Shown: piece by piece, positions 6,432 to 30,260 of the stretch
Numbering within the stretch: position 1 is the first letter of the stretch
Layout of the letters: each line of letters opens with the position of its first letter
NCBI RefSeq assembly: GCF_000011005.1
Contig: NC_013665.1
Location: 496,001 to 560,000 of the forward strand
Reading direction: 5' to 3'
DNA from: Methanocella paludicola SANAE
GTDB taxonomy: Archaea > Halobacteriota > Methanocellia > Methanocellales > Methanocellaceae
DNA length: 64,000 nt
The notes under the pieces: generated by a model
Databases searched by the model: none
Seen by the model: only the letters and a program-made list of their open reading frames with translations
Told to the model about the DNA's origin: nothing
Program-made: the position numbers and the translations under genes

Positions 6432-7635
6432 GACGCACGGCTGTACCGCGAACGCCAGCGATTCCCAGGCGATCAGGAACTCGGTCCTGGCCTCCGGGGG
6501 CGAGGTCGTGGGAACGCCCGAAGAGGCGGACACGGTCGTCGTCAATACCTGCGCGGTCACGGAGTTCACCTCGAAGAGCATGCTGAAGGCGATAAAAAAA
6601 TACAGCGGCAAGAGGGTCGTCGTCGCCGGGTGCATGGCCGCAGCGCAACCCTACCTTCTTAAGGGTATTCGGAATATCCAGATAGCGGAGGCGCCGGGGG
6701 CAGAAGCCGTTGCCCGGATGCTGGGTATAATGCCGGCGGCCGGGAGGCCGTTCATCAAGGGCACCTCTGCCGTCGTCTCCATCGCAGAAGGGTGCCGGGG
6801 CCATTGCTCCTACTGTATCGTGCGGCTCGTCAGGGGCCCGCTGCGCAGCGCCCCGGTCGAAGAGGTAGTCCATTCGATAAAAACGGCCCTGCGCATGGGC
6901 GCGAGGGAGATACTCTTAACGGCGCAGGACACGGGCGCCTACGGCCTCGATGCCGGCGAGAGGCTGCCCGCCCTGATGAAAGAGATACTCAGCATCGAGG
7001 GCGACTACCGCATTCGCCTCGGCATGATGAACCCGTTCTCCATCGCCGACATCCTGGGCGACATGGCCCGGATTTTCAATGACCCCAGAGTATACAGGTT
7101 CGCCCATATCCCCGTCCAGTCGGGCTCGGACAGGATATTGGGGCTCATGGAGAGGCCGTACACGGAAAGCCAGTACCGGGACATAGTCGCCCGGCTCAGG
7201 CAGGAGGTGCCGGGCATCACGCTGTCCACCGACTACATCGTAGGGTTCCCCACGGAGACCGATGAGGACTTCGCCCTGACCATGGACGACCTGCGGTCCA
7301 CAAGGCCCCTCAAGGTGAACATCACCCGCTTCTCCCCGCGGCCGGGCACCCCCGCGGCGTGCATGGAAAACTTGCCATTCCGGATAAAAAAGGAGCGCTC
7401 GAGGGCTCTCACTCAGCTTCACCACGGGATCACGTCGGAATACATGCGTGATTCGGCCGGTCGGCGCCTCAGCGTGCTCGTGACCGAGGAAGGAAAGCCA
7501 GGCACCTCGGTCGCGCGGGACGATTGTTATCATATGGTCGTGATACCGGAGGAGATCTCTCCGGGCACCCGCCTTGACGTGAAAATTTGCGGCGCGAGCA
7601 CTACCTATATGGTCGGCAAACCAATTGATAAATAA
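6415..7635 (+). CDS. tRNA t6A37 methylthiotransferase (MtaB/CDKAL1 type)
   Basis: The 406-residue radical-SAM enzyme has an N-terminal MTTase domain (METHGCTANASDS-like opening with cluster Cys residues near 9, 44 and 73), the radical SAM motif EGCRGHCSYCIV (CxxxCxxC, about residues 123-134) and a C-terminal TRAM-like region. The family adds a methylthio group to N6-threonylcarbamoyladenosine at position 37 of tRNA reading ANN codons. Archaeal members belong to the CDKAL1-like branch. It overlaps the transporter gene by 17 bases. Confidence 0.88.
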   Translation: MKIYIETHGCTANASDSQAIRNSVLASGGEVVGTPEEADTVVVNTCAVTEFTSKSMLKAIKKYSGKRVVVAGCMAAAQPYLLKGIRNIQIAEAPGAEAVARMLGIMPAAGRPFIKGTSAVVSIAEGCRGHCSYCIVRLVRGPLRSAPVEEVVHSIKTALRMGAREILLTAQDTGAYGLDAGERLPALMKEILSIEGDYRIRLGMMNPFSIADILGDMARIFNDPRVYRFAHIPVQSGSDRILGLMERPYTESQYRDIVARLRQEVPGITLSTDYIVGFPTETDEDFALTMDDLRSTRPLKVNITRFSPRPGTPAACMENLPFRIKKERSRALTQLHHGITSEYMRDSAGRRLSVLVTEEGKPGTSVARDDCYHMVVIPEEISPGTRLDVKICGASTTYMVGKPIDK

Positions 7636-8152
7636 AAACTATAAAAATTTATTAGCCAAATTATTTTTCTGATTTTAATTATATTGTATATTATGCTTTT
7701 TATTTAACTTTGTGACTTATAAATAACTTCACTGATGTTCATGTTCACGATTTTGGCCTTTAATTATTATATACCGGTTGTTGTTAAGCAGATTCGAAAA
7801 ATAGCTGAAAATGTTAGTATTATTTATTTATTATGGTCTAAATTCACCCGTATAAATCTCTATCATGTATTATTTGCTTATTTCATCAAAAAGAGCCAGT
7901 GCAGGCATGATAATCTATAAATAGGTTAAGAACGTACAGTAAATGTTTAATCCAAAAATTAAAAAATAATAATATTTTTATATGATTTACTAAAAGAAAA
8001 TATAACTTTTTTTTACAATTTTGCAATTAACCATATATAAACCTATTATTAAAAAATATCAATTTAATCAAGCTTTTTAAAACAATATAAATTATTTATA
8101 TAATAATCATTAAAAATATTTAGCGACTAAAACATAAAGTTAATATGCCAGA
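7636..8152. other. AT-rich intergenic DNA upstream of the mcr operon
   Basis: About 500 bases that are strongly AT-rich and hold no convincing gene. Several TATA-like runs occur, including CATATATAAACC near 8032-8043 and ATTTATATAATAATC near 8094-8108. The more distal one is a plausible mcr promoter; the nearer would give a leader of about 210 bases. A 61-codon open frame at 7735-7920 has no ribosome site and reads as random AT-rich sequence. A transcription start map would settle which box is used. Confidence 0.5.
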
Positions 8153-8343
8153 AATACATACAGAAGAGTAGTCGAATGGTCTATCGATGGCTATGGACGT
8201 ATGTATTAACCATGCCTATAACCTTTTAAGGCTGCCTGGTGAGGCAGCCATAATCGGCACCTCTTGAGTGCAGGACGCGGTTCGCGTCTGCACTAAGCGG
8301 ACCATTCTGACCATTTGTAAACAATCCCACGGGAGGAGGGAAA
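8153..8343 (+). promoter_or_regulatory. Structured mcr mRNA leader
   Basis: The 190 bases before mcrB are much less AT-rich than the DNA upstream and contain several possible stems. 8153-8161 pairs with 8199-8207 (9 bp). 8174-8181 (GAATGGTC) pairs with 8300-8307 (8 bp) and closes a domain with two hairpins: 8230-8249, a perfect 8-bp stem with a GGUG loop, and 8268-8293, an 11-bp stem with one bulged G. The first two long-range pairings interleave and could be alternatives. The GGGAGGAGGG ribosome site follows at 8331-8340. Confidence 0.5.
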
Positions 8344-9675
8344 ATGCCTAAATTCAAAGACAAAATAGACCTATACGACGATAAGGGAAAACTTTTAGAA
8401 AAGGATGTACCCCTTGAGGCAATCAGCCCGGTCATCAACCCGGCGATCAGAAAGATCGTCAACTTAACCAAGAGAACTGTGGCTGTCAGCCTGGAAGGCA
8501 TTGAATCTGCCCTGAAGACCGGCAAAGTCGGCGGCAAGGGCAGACAGGTTCTGGGCAGAAGCCTGGACCTATCCATCGTCAAGGACGCTGACAAGATCGC
8601 CAAAGTAGTTGCAGATACCGTGCGCATCAACAAGAGCGATGACACCGCTGTTAAGGTCATCGGCGGCGGCAAGAGCCTGCTCGTCCAGGTACCGACCCAG
8701 AGGGTCGAGGCCGGCGCCGAGTTCGTCGCCAGCCTGAGCTGCACCGCATCGGCGGTCACAGAAGCCATCATCGACATGTACAAGGTTGACATGTTCGACG
8801 GTCCGTTCGTCAAGAACGCGGTCTGGGGCATGTACCCGCAGACCATGGACTTGGTCGGCGGCAACGTCAAGATGATCCTCGAGATCCCCCAGAAGGACGA
8901 GGGCGTAGGCTATGCGTTAAGGAACATCCTGACCAACCACTGCGTCGTTATAGCGAAGAGGAACACCATGAACGTCGCTGCGCTGTCCTCGATATTCGAG
9001 CAGGCGGGCGTCTGTGAAATGGGCGACGCTGTCGGACCATGGGAGAGATACCAGTTACTTGGTTTCGCATACCAGGGTCTCAACGCGAACAACCTTGTCT
9101 ACAGCACGGTCAAGGAGAACGGCAAGAACGGTACCATCGGCTCCGTCGTCGCCTCCGTGATCGGCAAGGCAATAGAGGACAAGGTCATTAAAGTCGAAAA
9201 GACTCTTCCGTCTGGCTACAAGCTGTACACGACGGACGACATTCCGCTGTGGAACGCCTACACTGCAGCCGCCACGATGGCCGCGACCATGGTGAACTGC
9301 GGTGCGTTAAGAGGCGCCCAGGCCGTATCGTCCACTCTGCTGTACACCAACGACCTGATCGAAAGAGAGACCGGCCTACCGGGCTGCGACTTCGGTAAGG
9401 TAGAGGGTACTGCCGTCGGGTTCTCGTTCTTCAGCCACTCGATCTACGGTGGCGGCGGACCGGGTGTATTCAACGGCAACCACGTCGTTACCAGGCACAG
9501 CAAAGGCTTTGCAGTTCCATGCGTATCGGCGGCTTGCTCGCTCGATGCCGGCACCCAGATGTTCAGCCCCGAGGCGACCTCTGGTATCCTTGGCATATTC
9601 GGCGAGATCGCCGAGTTCAGGGAGCCGCTCTCGCATGTCGCAAAGGGAGCCGCGGAGGTCAAGGGTAAGGTATAA
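8344..9675 (+). CDS. mcrB: Methyl-coenzyme M reductase subunit beta
   Basis: The 443-residue protein starts [15 protein letters not shown], as in other McrB proteins, and has the conserved C-terminal half with [20 protein letters not shown] and ending AAEVKGKV. With McrA and McrG it forms the alpha2-beta2-gamma2 cytoplasmic enzyme that reduces methyl-coenzyme M with coenzyme B to methane. A strong GGGAGGAGGG site precedes the ATG. It is the first gene of mcrBDCGA. Length is normal. Confidence 0.98.
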
Positions 9676-9702
9676 GAAAGCTAAAAATGCGGAGTTATAA
9701 AA

Positions 9703-10197
9703 ATGGTATCACCGGTAACAGGGAAAAAGAGGCTGTTGCAGCTGGAAATTTTCCCATCGCGACTACTCACCGTCGAAACGGCCCAAAAGCTGCTCAACGA
9801 ATTGAACAAGATCAGCGGCATCACCCGAATGGTGGTCTACGGACCGGGCCTTCCGAAGGATGACCCGAAGGACTTGCTCGAGGGCAAGTTCGAGGCTCAG
9901 AAGAGATATCTGAACATCCTCGGAGAGCAGGTCGAGCTCACCGTCCAGGTCGGAAGGGTCTGGGTCGAGGTCGAGGACATCGCAGTGAAAGACAAGATCA
10001 GGGAAGCTTGTGAGAAGACGTTGCCCTTCTCCTTCGACATCAACGAAGGGCTCTACCTCCGAACGAGGAAGACAATTACGGACTACGTCCGGAAGGGCGG
10101 TAACGTCGACGACATAAGCCTGGGCATGTTCGATCCCAAGTCTAGACGCAAGCCATCGTGCTGCGGCCCGAGGTCGGACAAGCATATGGATGAATAA
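9703..10197 (+). CDS. mcrD: Methyl-coenzyme M reductase operon protein D
   Basis: The 164-residue protein has the conserved McrD core (LQLEIFPSRLL, TRMVVYGPGLPKDDP, LGMFDPKSRRKPSCCG). McrD is not part of mature MCR; it associates with the apo-enzyme and is thought to help cofactor F430 loading or assembly. It lies between mcrB and mcrC in the usual order. A second McrD is encoded at 45.4-45.9 kb in this window. Confidence 0.95.
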   Translation: MVSPVTGKKRLLQLEIFPSRLLTVETAQKLLNELNKISGITRMVVYGPGLPKDDPKDLLEGKFEAQKRYLNILGEQVELTVQVGRVWVEVEDIAVKDKIREACEKTLPFSFDINEGLYLRTRKTITDYVRKGGNVDDISLGMFDPKSRRKPSCCGPRSDKHMDE

Positions 10198-10217
10198 AAA
10201 ACGTGAGATGATATCAA

Positions 10218-10850
10218 ATGCCAATAGACCGAGAGACACAGGTTGTGGATTGCAGGGAAAGCATGGGGCTGGATAAGGGCGGAGGCCTCGCCCAGAGGGG
10301 CACTCTGTCCGAGACGGGCAGGCCCGATGTAATAGCCATAGCAATGACTCCCGGCAGGCGGCACATCACCAAGCCCGTTTGCGAGGTCACCCACGGACTA
10401 CGAAGGGAGGGCATCCAGGTCAGCGTGCTGGTCCTTTTCTCCGGAGGAGGCGTCCCGTCGGATTCGAAGGACGCGGCCATCGGCCGGGGCCCGAAGTTCG
10501 GCCTGTCCGAGAAGGAGATCGAGCAGATAAACCGCCACAAGCTGGCATTGATACACCTGGGGAACGTCAAGTCTCACGTCATATACAAGGCAAGGGACAT
10601 CTTACGGTTCGTAACTATCCCGGCCATCATCGTATGTCAGACCCCTGTCGACTTCGAGGACTTCGCCAAAATAGGCGTCAAGACCCGAGTCGTAAACCCG
10701 GAACCTGATAAGGTCGAAACACAGGGGACGATCGTCGAGATCGTCACCGGTATCACGAGAGGTCAGACTTGCTCGAGAGACAAGCTGAACGAGATCGTGA
10801 AAGATATCATTAGCATTAACCCGCAGAAGCTAGCTACACAAGGAGTGTAA
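10218..10850 (+). CDS. mcrC: Methyl-coenzyme M reductase operon protein C
   Basis: The 210-residue McrC has the motifs VDCRESMGLDKGGGLAQRG, AMTPGRRHITKPVC and LVLFSGGGVPSD. McrC is a component of the large complex that reductively activates MCR together with component A2 (AtwA). It starts 20 bases after mcrD with the GTGAG ribosome site at 10202-10206. AtwA is encoded 5.5 kb downstream. Confidence 0.95.
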   Translation: MPIDRETQVVDCRESMGLDKGGGLAQRGTLSETGRPDVIAIAMTPGRRHITKPVCEVTHGLRREGIQVSVLVLFSGGGVPSDSKDAAIGRGPKFGLSEKEIEQINRHKLALIHLGNVKSHVIYKARDILRFVTIPAIIVCQTPVDFEDFAKIGVKTRVVNPEPDKVETQGTIVEIVTGITRGQTCSRDKLNEIVKDIISINPQKLATQGV

Positions 10851-10854
10851 AAAT

Positions 10855-11613
10855 ATGGCATACAAAGCACAATATTACCCCGGTAAAACTTCTGTGGCCC
10901 AGAACAGAAAGAAGTTCATGGACCCATCTTACAAGCTGGAGAAGATCAGGAGCCTCTCCGACGACGACGTAGTCATCATGCTCGGGCACCGCGCCCCGGG
11001 ATCGGCCTACAAGACCATCCACCCGCCACTCAAGGAAGGCGGCGAGCCGGATGACCCGATCAGGAAGATCGTAGAGCCCACCGCCGGCGCAGCAGCCGGT
11101 GACAGGATCAGGTACTGCCAGTTCACTGACTCCATGTTCTACGCGCCCGCCGTGCCCTACCTCAGGTCATGGATGGCCGCGACCAGGTACAGGGGAGTAG
11201 ACCCCGGTACGCTGTCCGGCCGTCAGATCGTAGAGGCCCGTGAGAGGGATGTGGAGAAGATCACCAAGGAACTCATGGAGACAGAGGTCTACGATGCAGC
11301 GAGAAGCGGCTTAAGAGGCTGCACCGTGCACGGCCACTCCCTCAGGCTGAACGAGAACGGCATGATGTTCGACATGCTGCAGAGGGTCGTCCTGGACAAG
11401 AACGGCAACGTCTACGCCGTCAAGGACCAGGTCGGCGACCCGCTGGACCGCAAGGTCAACCTCGGCAAGCCAATGTCCGATGCGGAACTCAAGAAGAGGA
11501 CCACCATCTACTTCATCGGCGGCGTACCCTTCAGGTCCGACGCTGAGGTCGTAGGCTGGGTCCAGAGGATCCACAACGAGAGGACCAAGTGCGGCTTCGC
11601 GCCGAAGTTGTAA
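10855..11613 (+). CDS. mcrG: Methyl-coenzyme M reductase subunit gamma
   Basis: The 252-residue gamma subunit opens MAYKAQYYPGKTSVAQNRKK and carries the conserved DVVIMLGHRAPGSAYKTIHP segment that contacts coenzyme M and F430, and the closing TIYFIGGVPFRSDAE. It begins 4 bases after mcrC and is followed 16 bases later by mcrA. Sequence and length are typical. Confidence 0.98.
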   Translation: MAYKAQYYPGKTSVAQNRKKFMDPSYKLEKIRSLSDDDVVIMLGHRAPGSAYKTIHPPLKEGGEPDDPIRKIVEPTAGAAAGDRIRYCQFTDSMFYAPAVPYLRSWMAATRYRGVDPGTLSGRQIVEARERDVEKITKELMETEVYDAARSGLRGCTVHGHSLRLNENGMMFDMLQRVVLDKNGNVYAVKDQVGDPLDRKVNLGKPMSDAELKKRTTIYFIGGVPFRSDAEVVGWVQRIHNERTKCGFAPKL

Positions 11614-11629
11614 GGTGAGGTGAGATAAA

Positions 11630-13303
11630 ATGTCAGTAAAAGAAACCCAGAAGAGATTCATAAAGGCGATGAAGAAGAAGTTCGCCGGAGAAGACCCCAC
11701 CTCCACGACGACTGTGTACAAGTACGAAGGCTACACGCAGTCCAAGAGGAAGGTCGAGTTCAAGAAGGCTGGAGACGCCATCGCAAAGAAGAGGGGCATC
11801 TCAGCTTACAACCCGATGGTCCACATGGGCGGTATCCCGCTCGGCCAGAGGCAGCTCACCCCTTACGTAGTATCCGGAACCGATGTCGTAGTTGAGGGTG
11901 ATGACCTTCACTTCGTCAACAACGCTGCAATGCAGCAGTTCTGGGATGAAATAAGGAGGACTGTAATCGTCGGCCTCGACACCGCTCACGCGACCCTTGA
12001 GAAGCGTCTTGGCAAGACCGTCACCCCTGAGACGATCAGCAACTACCTGGCCATCCTCAACCACGCGATGCCCGGTGCGGCGGTCGTTCAGGAACACATG
12101 GTCGAGACCAACCCGGCCTTGACCGATGACTGTTTCGTGAAGGTCTTCACTGGCGACGACGAGCTTGCCGACTCCATCGACAAGCAGTACGTACTGGACA
12201 TCAACAAGGCCTTCCCGAAGGACCAGGCCGCAGCCCTGAAGAAGGCTGTCGGCAAGTCGCTGTACCAGGCCGTCCACATCCCGACCACCGTGGTCAGGAC
12301 CTGCGACGGCGGCACGACCTCCAGATGGTCGGCCATGCAGATCGGCATGTCGTTCATCGACGCATACAAGATGTGCGCCGGTGAAGCGGCCGTCGCCGAC
12401 CTCGCATTCGCCGCAAAGCACGCCTCGTTAGTCGAGATGGCGGACATTCTGCCCGCAAGGCGTGCCAGGGGCCCGAACGAGCCCGGCGGATTAAGCTTCG
12501 GCTTCCTCGCCGACATCGTGCAGACCAACCGCAAGTACCCGGACGACCCGTGCAAGTCGTCGCTCGAGGTAGTCGCGGCCGGCTGCATGCTGTATGACCA
12601 GATCTGGCTCGGCTCCTACATGTCCGGTGGTGTCGGCTTCACGCAGTATGCGACCGCCGCCTACACCGATGATATCCTGGATGACTTCACCTACTACGGT
12701 TATGACTACGCCAAGGGCAAGTACAAGATCGGCCAGACCAAGCCGACCATGGACATAGTCAACGACCTGTCGACGGAAGTCACCCTGTATGGTATCGAGC
12801 AGTACGAGAAGTACCCGACCACCCTCGAGGACCACTTCGGTGGCTCGCAGAGGGCGACCGTGCTCTCGGCAGCAGCCGGTGTTACCACCGCTATCGCGAC
12901 CGGTAACTCCAACGCTGGCCTGTCCGGCTGGTACATGTCAATGTACCTGCACAAGGAAGCATGGGGCAGGCTGGGCTTCTTCGGCTACGACCTGCAGGAC
13001 CAGTGCGGTGCGACCAACGTGTTCTCGTGCCGCTCTGATGAGGGCGCCATTGATGAGTTAAGAGGCCCGAACTACCCGAACTACGCGATGAACGTCGGCC
13101 ACCAGGGTGGCTACGCCGGTATCGCCGGTGCAGCTCACTTCGGCCGCGGCGACGCGTGGACGGCGAGCCCGCTCATCAAGATCTGCTTCGCGGACAAGAG
13201 CCTTGCCTTCGACTTCACCGAGCCGAGGAAGGAGTTCGCCCGCGGCGCGATCCGCGAGTTCATGCCGGCTGGCGAGAGGACTCTCGTCATCCCCGCAAAG
13301 TAA
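11630..13303 (+). CDS. mcrA: Methyl-coenzyme M reductase subunit alpha
   Basis: The 557-residue catalytic subunit contains the active-site segments [21 protein letters not shown] and [12 protein letters not shown]. By alignment to the numbering known for Methanothermobacter McrA, Gly460 is the thioglycine site (Gly445) and Cys467 the S-methylcysteine site (Cys452). His264 matches N-methyl-His257 and Arg278 matches methyl-Arg271. Thioglycine should be made by the YcaO/TfuA pair encoded at 41-43 kb. It is the last gene of the operon and is followed by a strong hairpin. Confidence 0.99.
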
Positions 13304-28981: not shown

Positions 28982-29298
28982 ATCCGATAGTATCCCATGT
29001 ATCCTGAGGCGGCGCAATTTAAAAAATGCCATCCATTTTAAAATCGGTAAAAAGCATGGCATATATGTTCAGGCGCAGACTTTTTAATTCATTGTACATT
29101 ATTCATATAGTAAAAAAGCCTTGAAGCATCAAGCGCTTATTATATAAAATGTATTATATTGGGTTTATTATACATTATAAAAGCGTATTCGAGGTTATTT
29201 TTGGGATTAAAGGCAATCCGCGGCTTCTCTTTTCCATTAACCGCATTTCGAAAGATTTATTAGTCTACAAACCCTTTAAAAATTGATACTTATAGCCC
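28982..29298. other. AT-rich intergenic DNA before the mtr leader
   Basis: About 320 bases between the divergent DUF202 and mtr transcription units. I see no gene. TATA-like runs occur at 29139-29156 and CCTTTAAAAATTG at 29271-29283. The second lies about 80 bases before mtrE and would put the hairpin below near the 5' end of the mtr mRNA. Confidence 0.45.
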
Positions 29299-29352
29299 TA
29301 ATTATGGATGTCTGTTCCCTACACGTATCCATAATTATAAACTAAAGAGGAG
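29299..29352 (+). promoter_or_regulatory. mtr leader hairpin and ribosome site
   Basis: TAATTATGGAT at 29299-29309 and its perfect complement at 29327-29337 form an 11-bp stem with a 17-base loop. The GAGGAGG ribosome site follows at 29346-29352, 8 bases before mtrE. As DNA it is also a good operator for a dimeric regulator. As RNA it could control mtr translation or stability. Confidence 0.55.
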
Positions 29353-29360
29353 GATAACAC

Positions 29361-30260
29361 ATGGTAGAACCAACAATAGTACTGAGCCTAGGAACGGCTG
29401 CACTCATGGGTGCCTGTGCTACTATTGCGGGGGCTGCGGAAGACCTGGAGTCGGATTTCGGCTCACAGTCCAACGCTAACTCGCAAGTGCAGCTCGCTCC
29501 GCAGGTAGGTTACTTACACCGCTACTACAACAAGGCAGTCAGCGGTGAGCCGGTAGCCTACGGGTTCTTATGCTGCACCGGTGCAGCCATCGCATTGGCT
29601 CTCATGATGGCGTTCAAAGTGAACCCCGTCATAGCTCTTGCGTTCGGCGCCCTGGCGGCCTCGTTGATGTACGGTGTATATGCAACGACGGCTTACATGG
29701 GCAGGTTGACCGGACAGAAGAGATTTGGCCAACCGATATATCTCGATATATTGTTAACGACAACACCAGCTATTATCGCCCACGCCTTTATTGCGGCAAT
29801 GGCGATCGGAACGTTCTCTTATTTAATGAACTGGATCCTCGGACAACCCTTCCCCTTCCCCATTCTCGCAATGCTGTGGGGCGTAATCGTCGGCGGTATG
29901 GGCTCCGCGGTCGGTGATGTTCACTATGGTGCTGAGAGGGAATACCAGAACAAGCCGTTCGGCATGGGATTACCCGCGGCACAGTCCGGCAAGATCGTCC
30001 AGAAGGGCGAGGCCGGCCTCAGGAACAGCATAGACGTTGCCGGCTACTGCGTCAAGCACGGCGGCCCCCTGACCGGGTTCGGTCTGGGCATAACCGTGTT
30101 CTCGGATGCGTGGAGAGAGATCCTGTTCACCCAGTACTGGAACGGATGGGGCGCAATGGTCGCCGGCCTTCTGTTAGTGCTTATCTGGGTCATCTTCAAC
30201 CGCATCCTCGAGATGTGGACCAGGAAGAACTACCCGGCATACAAGGCAGCGGAGGAGTAA
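29361..30260 (+). CDS. mtrE: Methyl-H4MPT:CoM methyltransferase subunit E
   Basis: The 299-residue membrane protein is the first gene of the complete mtrEDCBAFGH operon. It has about six membrane segments and the cytoplasmic loop DLESDFGSQSNANSQVQLAP. With MtrC and MtrD it forms the Na+-translocating membrane part of the complex that transfers the methyl group from tetrahydro(sarcina)pterin to coenzyme M. Gene spacing of one base to mtrD is typical. Confidence 0.97.
   Translation: MVEPTIVLSLGTAALMGACATIAGAAEDLESDFGSQSNANSQVQLAPQVGYLHRYYNKAVSGEPVAYGFLCCTGAAIALALMMAFKVNPVIALAFGALAASLMYGVYATTAYMGRLTGQKRFGQPIYLDILLTTTPAIIAHAFIAAMAIGTFSYLMNWILGQPFPFPILAMLWGVIVGGMGSAVGDVHYGAEREYQNKPFGMGLPAAQSGKIVQKGEAGLRNSIDVAGYCVKHGGPLTGFGLGITVFSDAWREILFTQYWNGWGAMVAGLLLVLIWVIFNRILEMWTRKNYPAYKAAEE

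Follow-up and report, generated by a model that had tools for sequence, protein, structure and literature searches.

Almost all methane of biological origin is made by Mcr, which ranks among the most abundant proteins in the cells that contain it. To our knowledge, little has been established about how the mcr mRNA attains and holds its level, and we know of no good understanding of mRNA decay from the 5' end in archaea. The window (the whole 64-kb stretch of DNA analysed here, which sits in an archaeal genome of 2,957,635 bases, G000) carries the operon mcrBDCGA directly downstream of a stretch that is rich in potential RNA structure, and it raises the question of what this structure does for the transcript. 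The original prediction described two hairpins enclosed by an 8-bp long-range pairing, together with a competing 9-bp pairing, and proposed a cis-acting RNA that controls expression. The reading favoured below, to which we assign a probability of about 0.5, is instead that the leader is a constitutive seal of the 5' end which would stabilize an abundant mRNA while leaving the SD open.

The features on which the argument depends are the following (P denotes predicted pairing probability).

8132-8146, + strand: predicted core promoter (BRE/TATA), ACATAAAGTTAATAT, a putative DNA element that would lie outside the RNA
8170-8171, + strand: predicted transcription start, about 27 nt 3' of the TATA centre
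8171-8181, + strand: 5' arm of the closing helix P1, where the predicted mRNA begins, homologous to GUCUAAGUGGU of the relatives
8186-8190, + strand: 5' side of the inner helix of P1, pairing with 8302-8306 in the second register (P about 0.7)
8192-8220, + strand: stem-loop 8192-8196/8216-8220 with 8199-8203/8211-8215, from the minimum-energy fold; sequence not conserved
8230-8249, + strand: perfect 8-bp hairpin with a 4-nt loop (P 0.98-1.0)
8268-8293, + strand: 11-bp hairpin in which G8274 is bulged; P 0.86-1.0 for most pairs and 0.51 for the one beside the bulge
8300-8307, + strand: 3' arm of P1, copy 1, pairing with 8174-8181, the register originally described
8309-8317, + strand: 3' arm of P1, copy 2, pairing with 8173-8181
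8323-8340, + strand: AATCCCACGGGAGGAGGG, better conserved than any other part of the leader and containing the SD GGAGG (8332-8336); one variable position in four genomes
8344-13303, + strand: mcrB, mcrD, mcrC, mcrG and mcrA (operon mcrBDCGA)
29285-29360: mtr leader, with mtrE at 29361 and a box near 29256

The structured leader and its predicted start

The structured mcr leader is real and is conserved in its layout. Computed folding, for which a 37 C energy model was used throughout, gives 8171-8346 a z of -6.6, which is the lowest among the 641 stretches of 176 nt in the window (0 of the 640 others are as low), while the longer segment 8140-8345 has a z of -3.6 and folds better than every one of 200 shuffles. 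Three perfect inverted repeats of at least 8 bp are found in 8132-8346, compared to a shuffle mean of 0.24, and none of 300 shuffles reaches three. All four of the pairings originally described are present, the folding of the leader exceeds chance when judged by z and by shuffles, and the ribosome site does lie just past the structure. The same scan found its second strongest folding at 8401-8576, the start of mcrB (z -5.1, + strand), and its third on the minus strand at 12201, within mcrA. The element is best explained as the 5' untranslated region of the mcr operon mRNA, with a predicted length of 173 nt (8171-8343).

This delimitation depends on where transcription starts. The sample of Methanocellales consists of four genomes, the window's own and three others (G001, G002 and G003), and in all four the box ACATAAAsTTAATAT, in which only the S position varies and which is nearly unique in each genome, stands upstream of mcr. 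The box is probably a BRE/TATA core promoter, and if it is, transcription would begin at about 8170/8171, which is the simplest reading of the sequence. Conservation ends directly after the box and returns 22-24 nt further on with a segment resembling GUCUAAGUGGU (GUUCAAGUGGU in G001, GUCGAAUGGU in the window), and in each of G001, G002 and G003 a G preceded by TT follows the first T of the box by 29-30 nt. BRE/TATA-like boxes, assigned by eye and group by group (ACAAAAGATTTAAGTA, GCAAAAGGTTTAAAC, GCAAAAACTTTAAGTA and AGCAATGCTTATATG among them), also stand upstream of mcr in other families, at an equal distance from where the leader fold begins. Canonical boxes (TCGAAAGnTTTATTA) also precede the mtr operon in the four Methanocellales; beyond them lies a spacer of low conservation and then a conserved block that begins with GATA, 29 nt past the first T of the TATA.

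The alternative is that transcription starts further upstream, from an AT-rich TATA-like stretch near 8092-8107, which would make the box a 5'-terminal RNA element or an operator and the pairing of 8153-8161 a real alternative fold. The near invariance and near uniqueness of the box are compatible with this view, and TATA-like sequences can be seen by eye about 30-35 nt before the box in all four genomes. Against it stand the clear BRE/TATA boxes that other lineages carry at this distance from P1, the halt of conservation immediately after the box and its later return, the identical spacing of mtr with its canonical boxes, and the fact that no counterpart of the 8153-8161/8199-8207 pairing was seen by eye in the three other leaders; an upstream start is consequently judged very unlikely. 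That pairing, originally presented as a competitor of the main domain, does exist as a perfect 9-bp match, but it is weak (15 of 300 shuffles contain one as long, and its P is about 0.08). Its arm 8153-8161 falls between the predicted TATA and the predicted +1, so that, if the +1 at 8170/8171 is right, the arm is not in the RNA and the alternative fold has to be rejected; the inner domain, moreover, does not exhibit the aptamer-like conservation that a switch would suggest. The predicted start lies 5' of P1 and not downstream of 8307, where it would have refuted the original prediction.

A second exact copy of ACATAAAGTTAATAT occurs in G001 (L108), about 28 nt upstream of a frame on the minus strand that ends at 542 and whose product looks like a radical SAM protein (MoaA-like).

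The closing helix P1 and its recurrence

P1 is predicted to tie the very beginning of the mRNA to the sequence directly before the SD. The tandem repeat that makes up its 3' arm (GACCAUUCU GACCAUUUG) allows the helix two registers. The enclosing 8-bp pairing of the original prediction, 8174-8181 with 8300-8307, is one of these, but that description missed its extension by 3 bp (8171-8173/8309-8311) across a bulged U8308. The helix may also use the other register, 8173-8181 with 8309-8317, whose P is about 0.8 from the predicted +1. When the fold is computed from the predicted +1, the second register together with the inner helix 8186-8190/8302-8306 has a P of about 0.7-0.8 and the first register with its 3-bp extension a P of about 0.2 (about 0.19 for the 8 bp), while the first register rises to about 0.65 once upstream sequence is included. 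The energy gap between the two folds is below 1 kcal/mol, so that either 8300-8307 or 8309-8317 may serve as the 3' arm. The 9-nt duplication of the 3' arm is also present in G001, with different letters. The first two nucleotides of the window's mRNA, counted from 8171, are paired at a P of only 0.42 in the fold from the predicted +1.

The leader was recovered in all four Methanocellales, where it runs for about 173-194 nt from the predicted +1 and where its sequences are very different. A DNA search across the order with the window's leader returned, apart from the window itself, only short matches, the RBS block among them, and no convincing alignment of the leader interior could be made among the four species. 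What the four leaders have in common is the box, the GUCUAAGUGGU-like segment, and the block AATCCyACGGGAGGAGGG before mcrB; the window's version of that block, AATCCCACGGGAGGAGGG, has no other exact copy in the four genomes. In the single-sequence folds of G001, G002 and G003 a segment resembling GUCUAAGUGG pairs with one located about 10-15 nt upstream of the ribosome block. A hand alignment of P1 has 41 of its 46 lettered cells paired and both-sided changes at 3 of 12 pair positions, and in the window one pair is missing from both arms; this alignment was fitted to the structure and contains four sequences, and three of its pairs are broken in G003 and two in G001. For the window's own leader, the pairing measure computed alongside was matched by 20 of 852 real windows. 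Swapping arms among the four species gave no discrimination. Permutations of the first 14 nt matched the real pairing in 4 of 300 trials for the window, 2 of 300 for G002, 15 of 300 for G001 and 32 of 300 for G003. Compensatory changes exist, and their absence from relatives, the other result that would have refuted the original prediction, does not occur; for the four Methanocellales sequences the covariation of P1 is suggestive only.

A partial copy of the mcr leader was observed in G002 (contig C63, L006 1313-1540), about 390 nt before an open frame that begins at 1704. It comprises a 19-nt piece that matches the start of the G002 leader exactly and roughly 30 nt that are 87% like 8201-8230 of the window; no promoter box was seen at this copy, and its folding is unremarkable (z -0.07).

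The comparison was extended to other methanogens, in which the genus and order names of the groups, including the label "Methanomicrobiales type", are our own assignments. mcrB was found in 230 of 392 genomes, and the leaders examined are a part of these: 69 in all, made up of the 4 from Methanocellales, 29 of the 30 loci of one mcrB set and 36 of 40 further regions. Those left out are L086, which has an insert before the SD, and L141, L142, L154 and L157, in which no promoter box could be assigned by eye. A search of genome contigs for related loci returned 39, one from Methanocellales (G002) and 38 from other methanogens, and eight extra leaders from these entered only the count of hairpins at +1; the same search of viral contigs returned none.

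As a measure of the connection between the 5' end and the region before the SD, we scored how well the first 20 nt pair with the last 75 nt. No more than 3 of 60 shuffles matched the real pairing in 41 of the 69 leaders, a count that does not represent 69 independent cases because leaders within one group are related. The measure was passed by 2 of 4 Methanocellales (the window itself was matched by 8 of 60 shuffles), 13 of 18 leaders of the Methanosarcina type, 10 of 10 in f19, 3 of 3 in each of f2 and f36, 2 of 3 in f30, 1 of 1 in f3g20 and 2 of 2 in g5 plus f3g5. In g38 plus f3g38 it was passed by 3 of 7 and in f3g78 by 1 of 3, and exceptions to the long-range form were f3g28 (1 of 4), g13 (0 of 5) and the Methanomicrobiales type (0 of 6). 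The consensus fold of f19 has 27 pairs, 12 of which have changed on both sides, compared to 6.5 in shuffles (none of 500 as high), and in its P1 99% of cells are paired, with both-sided change in only 1 of 10 pairs. In f30 and f36 taken together, P1 has 10 pairs with 90% of cells paired, 3 of them with both-sided changes; the covariation score was matched by 3 of 500 shuffles, while the number of pairs changed on both sides, taken by itself, is unremarkable (reached by 185 of 500). A predicted helix from the 5' end to the region before the SD, with different letters, is thus recurrent in lineages with equal promoter spacing, with compensatory support in f19 and in f30 plus f36.

The leaders of the Methanomicrobiales type have a different arrangement. 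GUCC(C) follows the first T of the TATA by 29-31 nt, and the first four nucleotides lie in a local hairpin, far from the SD, with a P of at least 0.96 in 12 of 14 leaders (0.25 in L156 and about 0.48 in L159). A conserved motif GUCCC..GGGGACGUGCARUAG is shared, at the predicted +1, by the leaders upstream of mcrB in L036-L045, L064 and L152-L159, and the leaders with this motif that were scanned gave no Rfam match at gathering scores. In L086, from a genome of the Methanosarcina type, roughly 190 nt are inserted between the mcr leader and the ribosome site.

A proposed seal of the 5' end and competing functions

P1 is probably a 5'-terminal seal. In the proposed mechanism the first 9-11 nt of the mRNA would find their partner more than 100 nt further on, just 5' of the ribosome site, and the leader would form a single closed domain of several stems. 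A 5' end paired in this way may block enzymes that attack free 5' ends, either a 5'-to-3' exonuclease such as aRNase J or the activity that removes the triphosphate, which would confer a long life on the abundant mcr mRNA, and the closed domain would place the 5' end near an accessible SD. What the computation shows is strong folding, a common layout in all four Methanocellales and, in other families, a helix from the 5' end to the region before the SD with compensatory changes; the +1 position, the stabilization and aRNase J as the enzyme excluded are inferred. RNase J is a 5'-to-3' enzyme of the kind that a paired 5' end would hinder, and a protein of this family scores above the cut-off in all four Methanocellales genomes. 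The position of the helix at the 5' end is kept while the inner stems turn over, which argues against an aptamer and for a structural task at the 5' end. A published study of Methanosarcina acetivorans places mcr among the genes stabilized during methylotrophic growth and also states that changes in mRNA stability were not correlated with folding energy (PMC5112694), the latter counting against the seal.

The principal competitor is that the leader works on translation, with the closed domain determining how the SD is spaced or presented, or providing a standby site, and with the opening of P1, or of a small UCCy/GGGA pairing at the SD, tuning initiation, so that an effect on decay would not be needed. 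The end of P1 always lies shortly upstream of the SD, the block at the SD is the most conserved part of the leader, and its UCCC (8325-8328) pairs with GGGA (8338-8341) at a P of 0.85-0.97; in addition, in M. acetivorans a synthetic riboswitch placed just 5' of the RBS in an mcrB leader is reported to have altered reporter activity (PMC3942078). Yet the SD core appears unmasked in the 37 C model, in which the five bases of GGAGG at 8332-8336 are paired at 0.02, 0.03, 0.02, 0.47 and 0.40, and in the Methanomicrobiales type the hairpin at +1 is distant from the SD, and a translational role is considered doubtful. An RNA thermometer that masks the SD is not supported: in the same model three of these bases are open and the other two half paired.

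Much less probable still is a regulator that senses a ligand or protein in the manner of a riboswitch (nickel, F430 or an Mcr assembly factor, for example). It is true that a long structured leader precedes a cofactor-dependent enzyme and that the tandem 3' arm would permit two registers, but the interior, unalignable among four species of one order, has no conserved inner core, the SD is not masked, there is no Rfam match, and no terminator-like U run follows the last hairpin. Rfam returned only a tRNA elsewhere when the 64-kb window was scanned at the gathering threshold, only chance-level matches in a low-threshold scan of 7630-8400, and none in 39 different related loci. A conserved aptamer core of a riboswitch was not found among the four Methanocellales. 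Two specific candidates were rejected: an attenuator with an intrinsic terminator, as 8268-8293 is followed by UAAGCGGACC, in which no U run is seen by eye; and a leader peptide, as the frame from 8176 has no counterpart by eye in G003. The idea of a cis-acting RNA that controls expression survives in part: a conserved structured leader is present in all four Methanocellales and the same architecture in other orders, but the switch is unsupported, and a constitutive stabilizer or spacer would fit as well as control of expression, or better.

If sealing is the function, a broader reading can be advanced tentatively: the methanogens of the phylum may share an old design in which the mcr mRNA begins in a helix, long-range or local, and the sealed end is under selection. 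The design would take the form of a closing helix in Methanocellales, the Methanosarcina type, f19, f30, f36 and f2, and of a local hairpin at +1 in the Methanomicrobiales type, and the letters, the length and the inner stems might then change freely around the sealed 5' end. A conserved seal of this kind would be a concrete stability element of archaeal mRNA, a 5'-end protection element with no description in the literature searched, and it would be carried along in the mcr promoter fragments that serve as genetic tools.

Comparison with known leaders

The literature search found no report on the structure of the mcr leader. Several other methanogen leaders resemble it in being long and in preceding genes that are abundantly expressed or belong to methanogenesis: those of mtaA and mtaC, which are said to aid transcript stability at low temperature (PMC5378194), that of cdh, which a title referenced in PMC5112694 describes as regulating expression, and the slmA1 UTR, for which structures have been predicted (PMC3361143). 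Unlike the mcr leader, these are not described, in the portions of the accounts consulted, as having a pairing between the first nucleotides and the region before the SD.

The mtr leader of the same genomes has a promoter-to-leader spacing like that of mcr and a conserved hairpin before the SD (UAAUUAUGGAU...AUCCAUAAUUA, in all four Methanocellales), but it is short (73-76 nt), and its first four nucleotides are mostly unpaired in Methanocellales. The mtr comparison covered 13 of 15 loci, L179 and L180 having been dropped because no start or no box was found. The f19 version of the mtr leader is closed almost from its 5' end, and since mtr starts are mostly unpaired in Methanocellales and more closed in f19, sealing would be neither specific to mcr nor general.

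The stabilizers of the bacterial ompA, papA and aprE mRNAs are local stem-loops that act on RNase E/RppH or on the Bacillus machinery. As is predicted for the mcr leader, these mRNAs have pairing at the very 5' end, and the titles cited in PMC3997798 report it as stabilizing the mRNA. The mcr leader differs from them in that it belongs to an archaeon and in that the predicted partner of its 5' end is located at the SD, at a distance of more than 100 nt.
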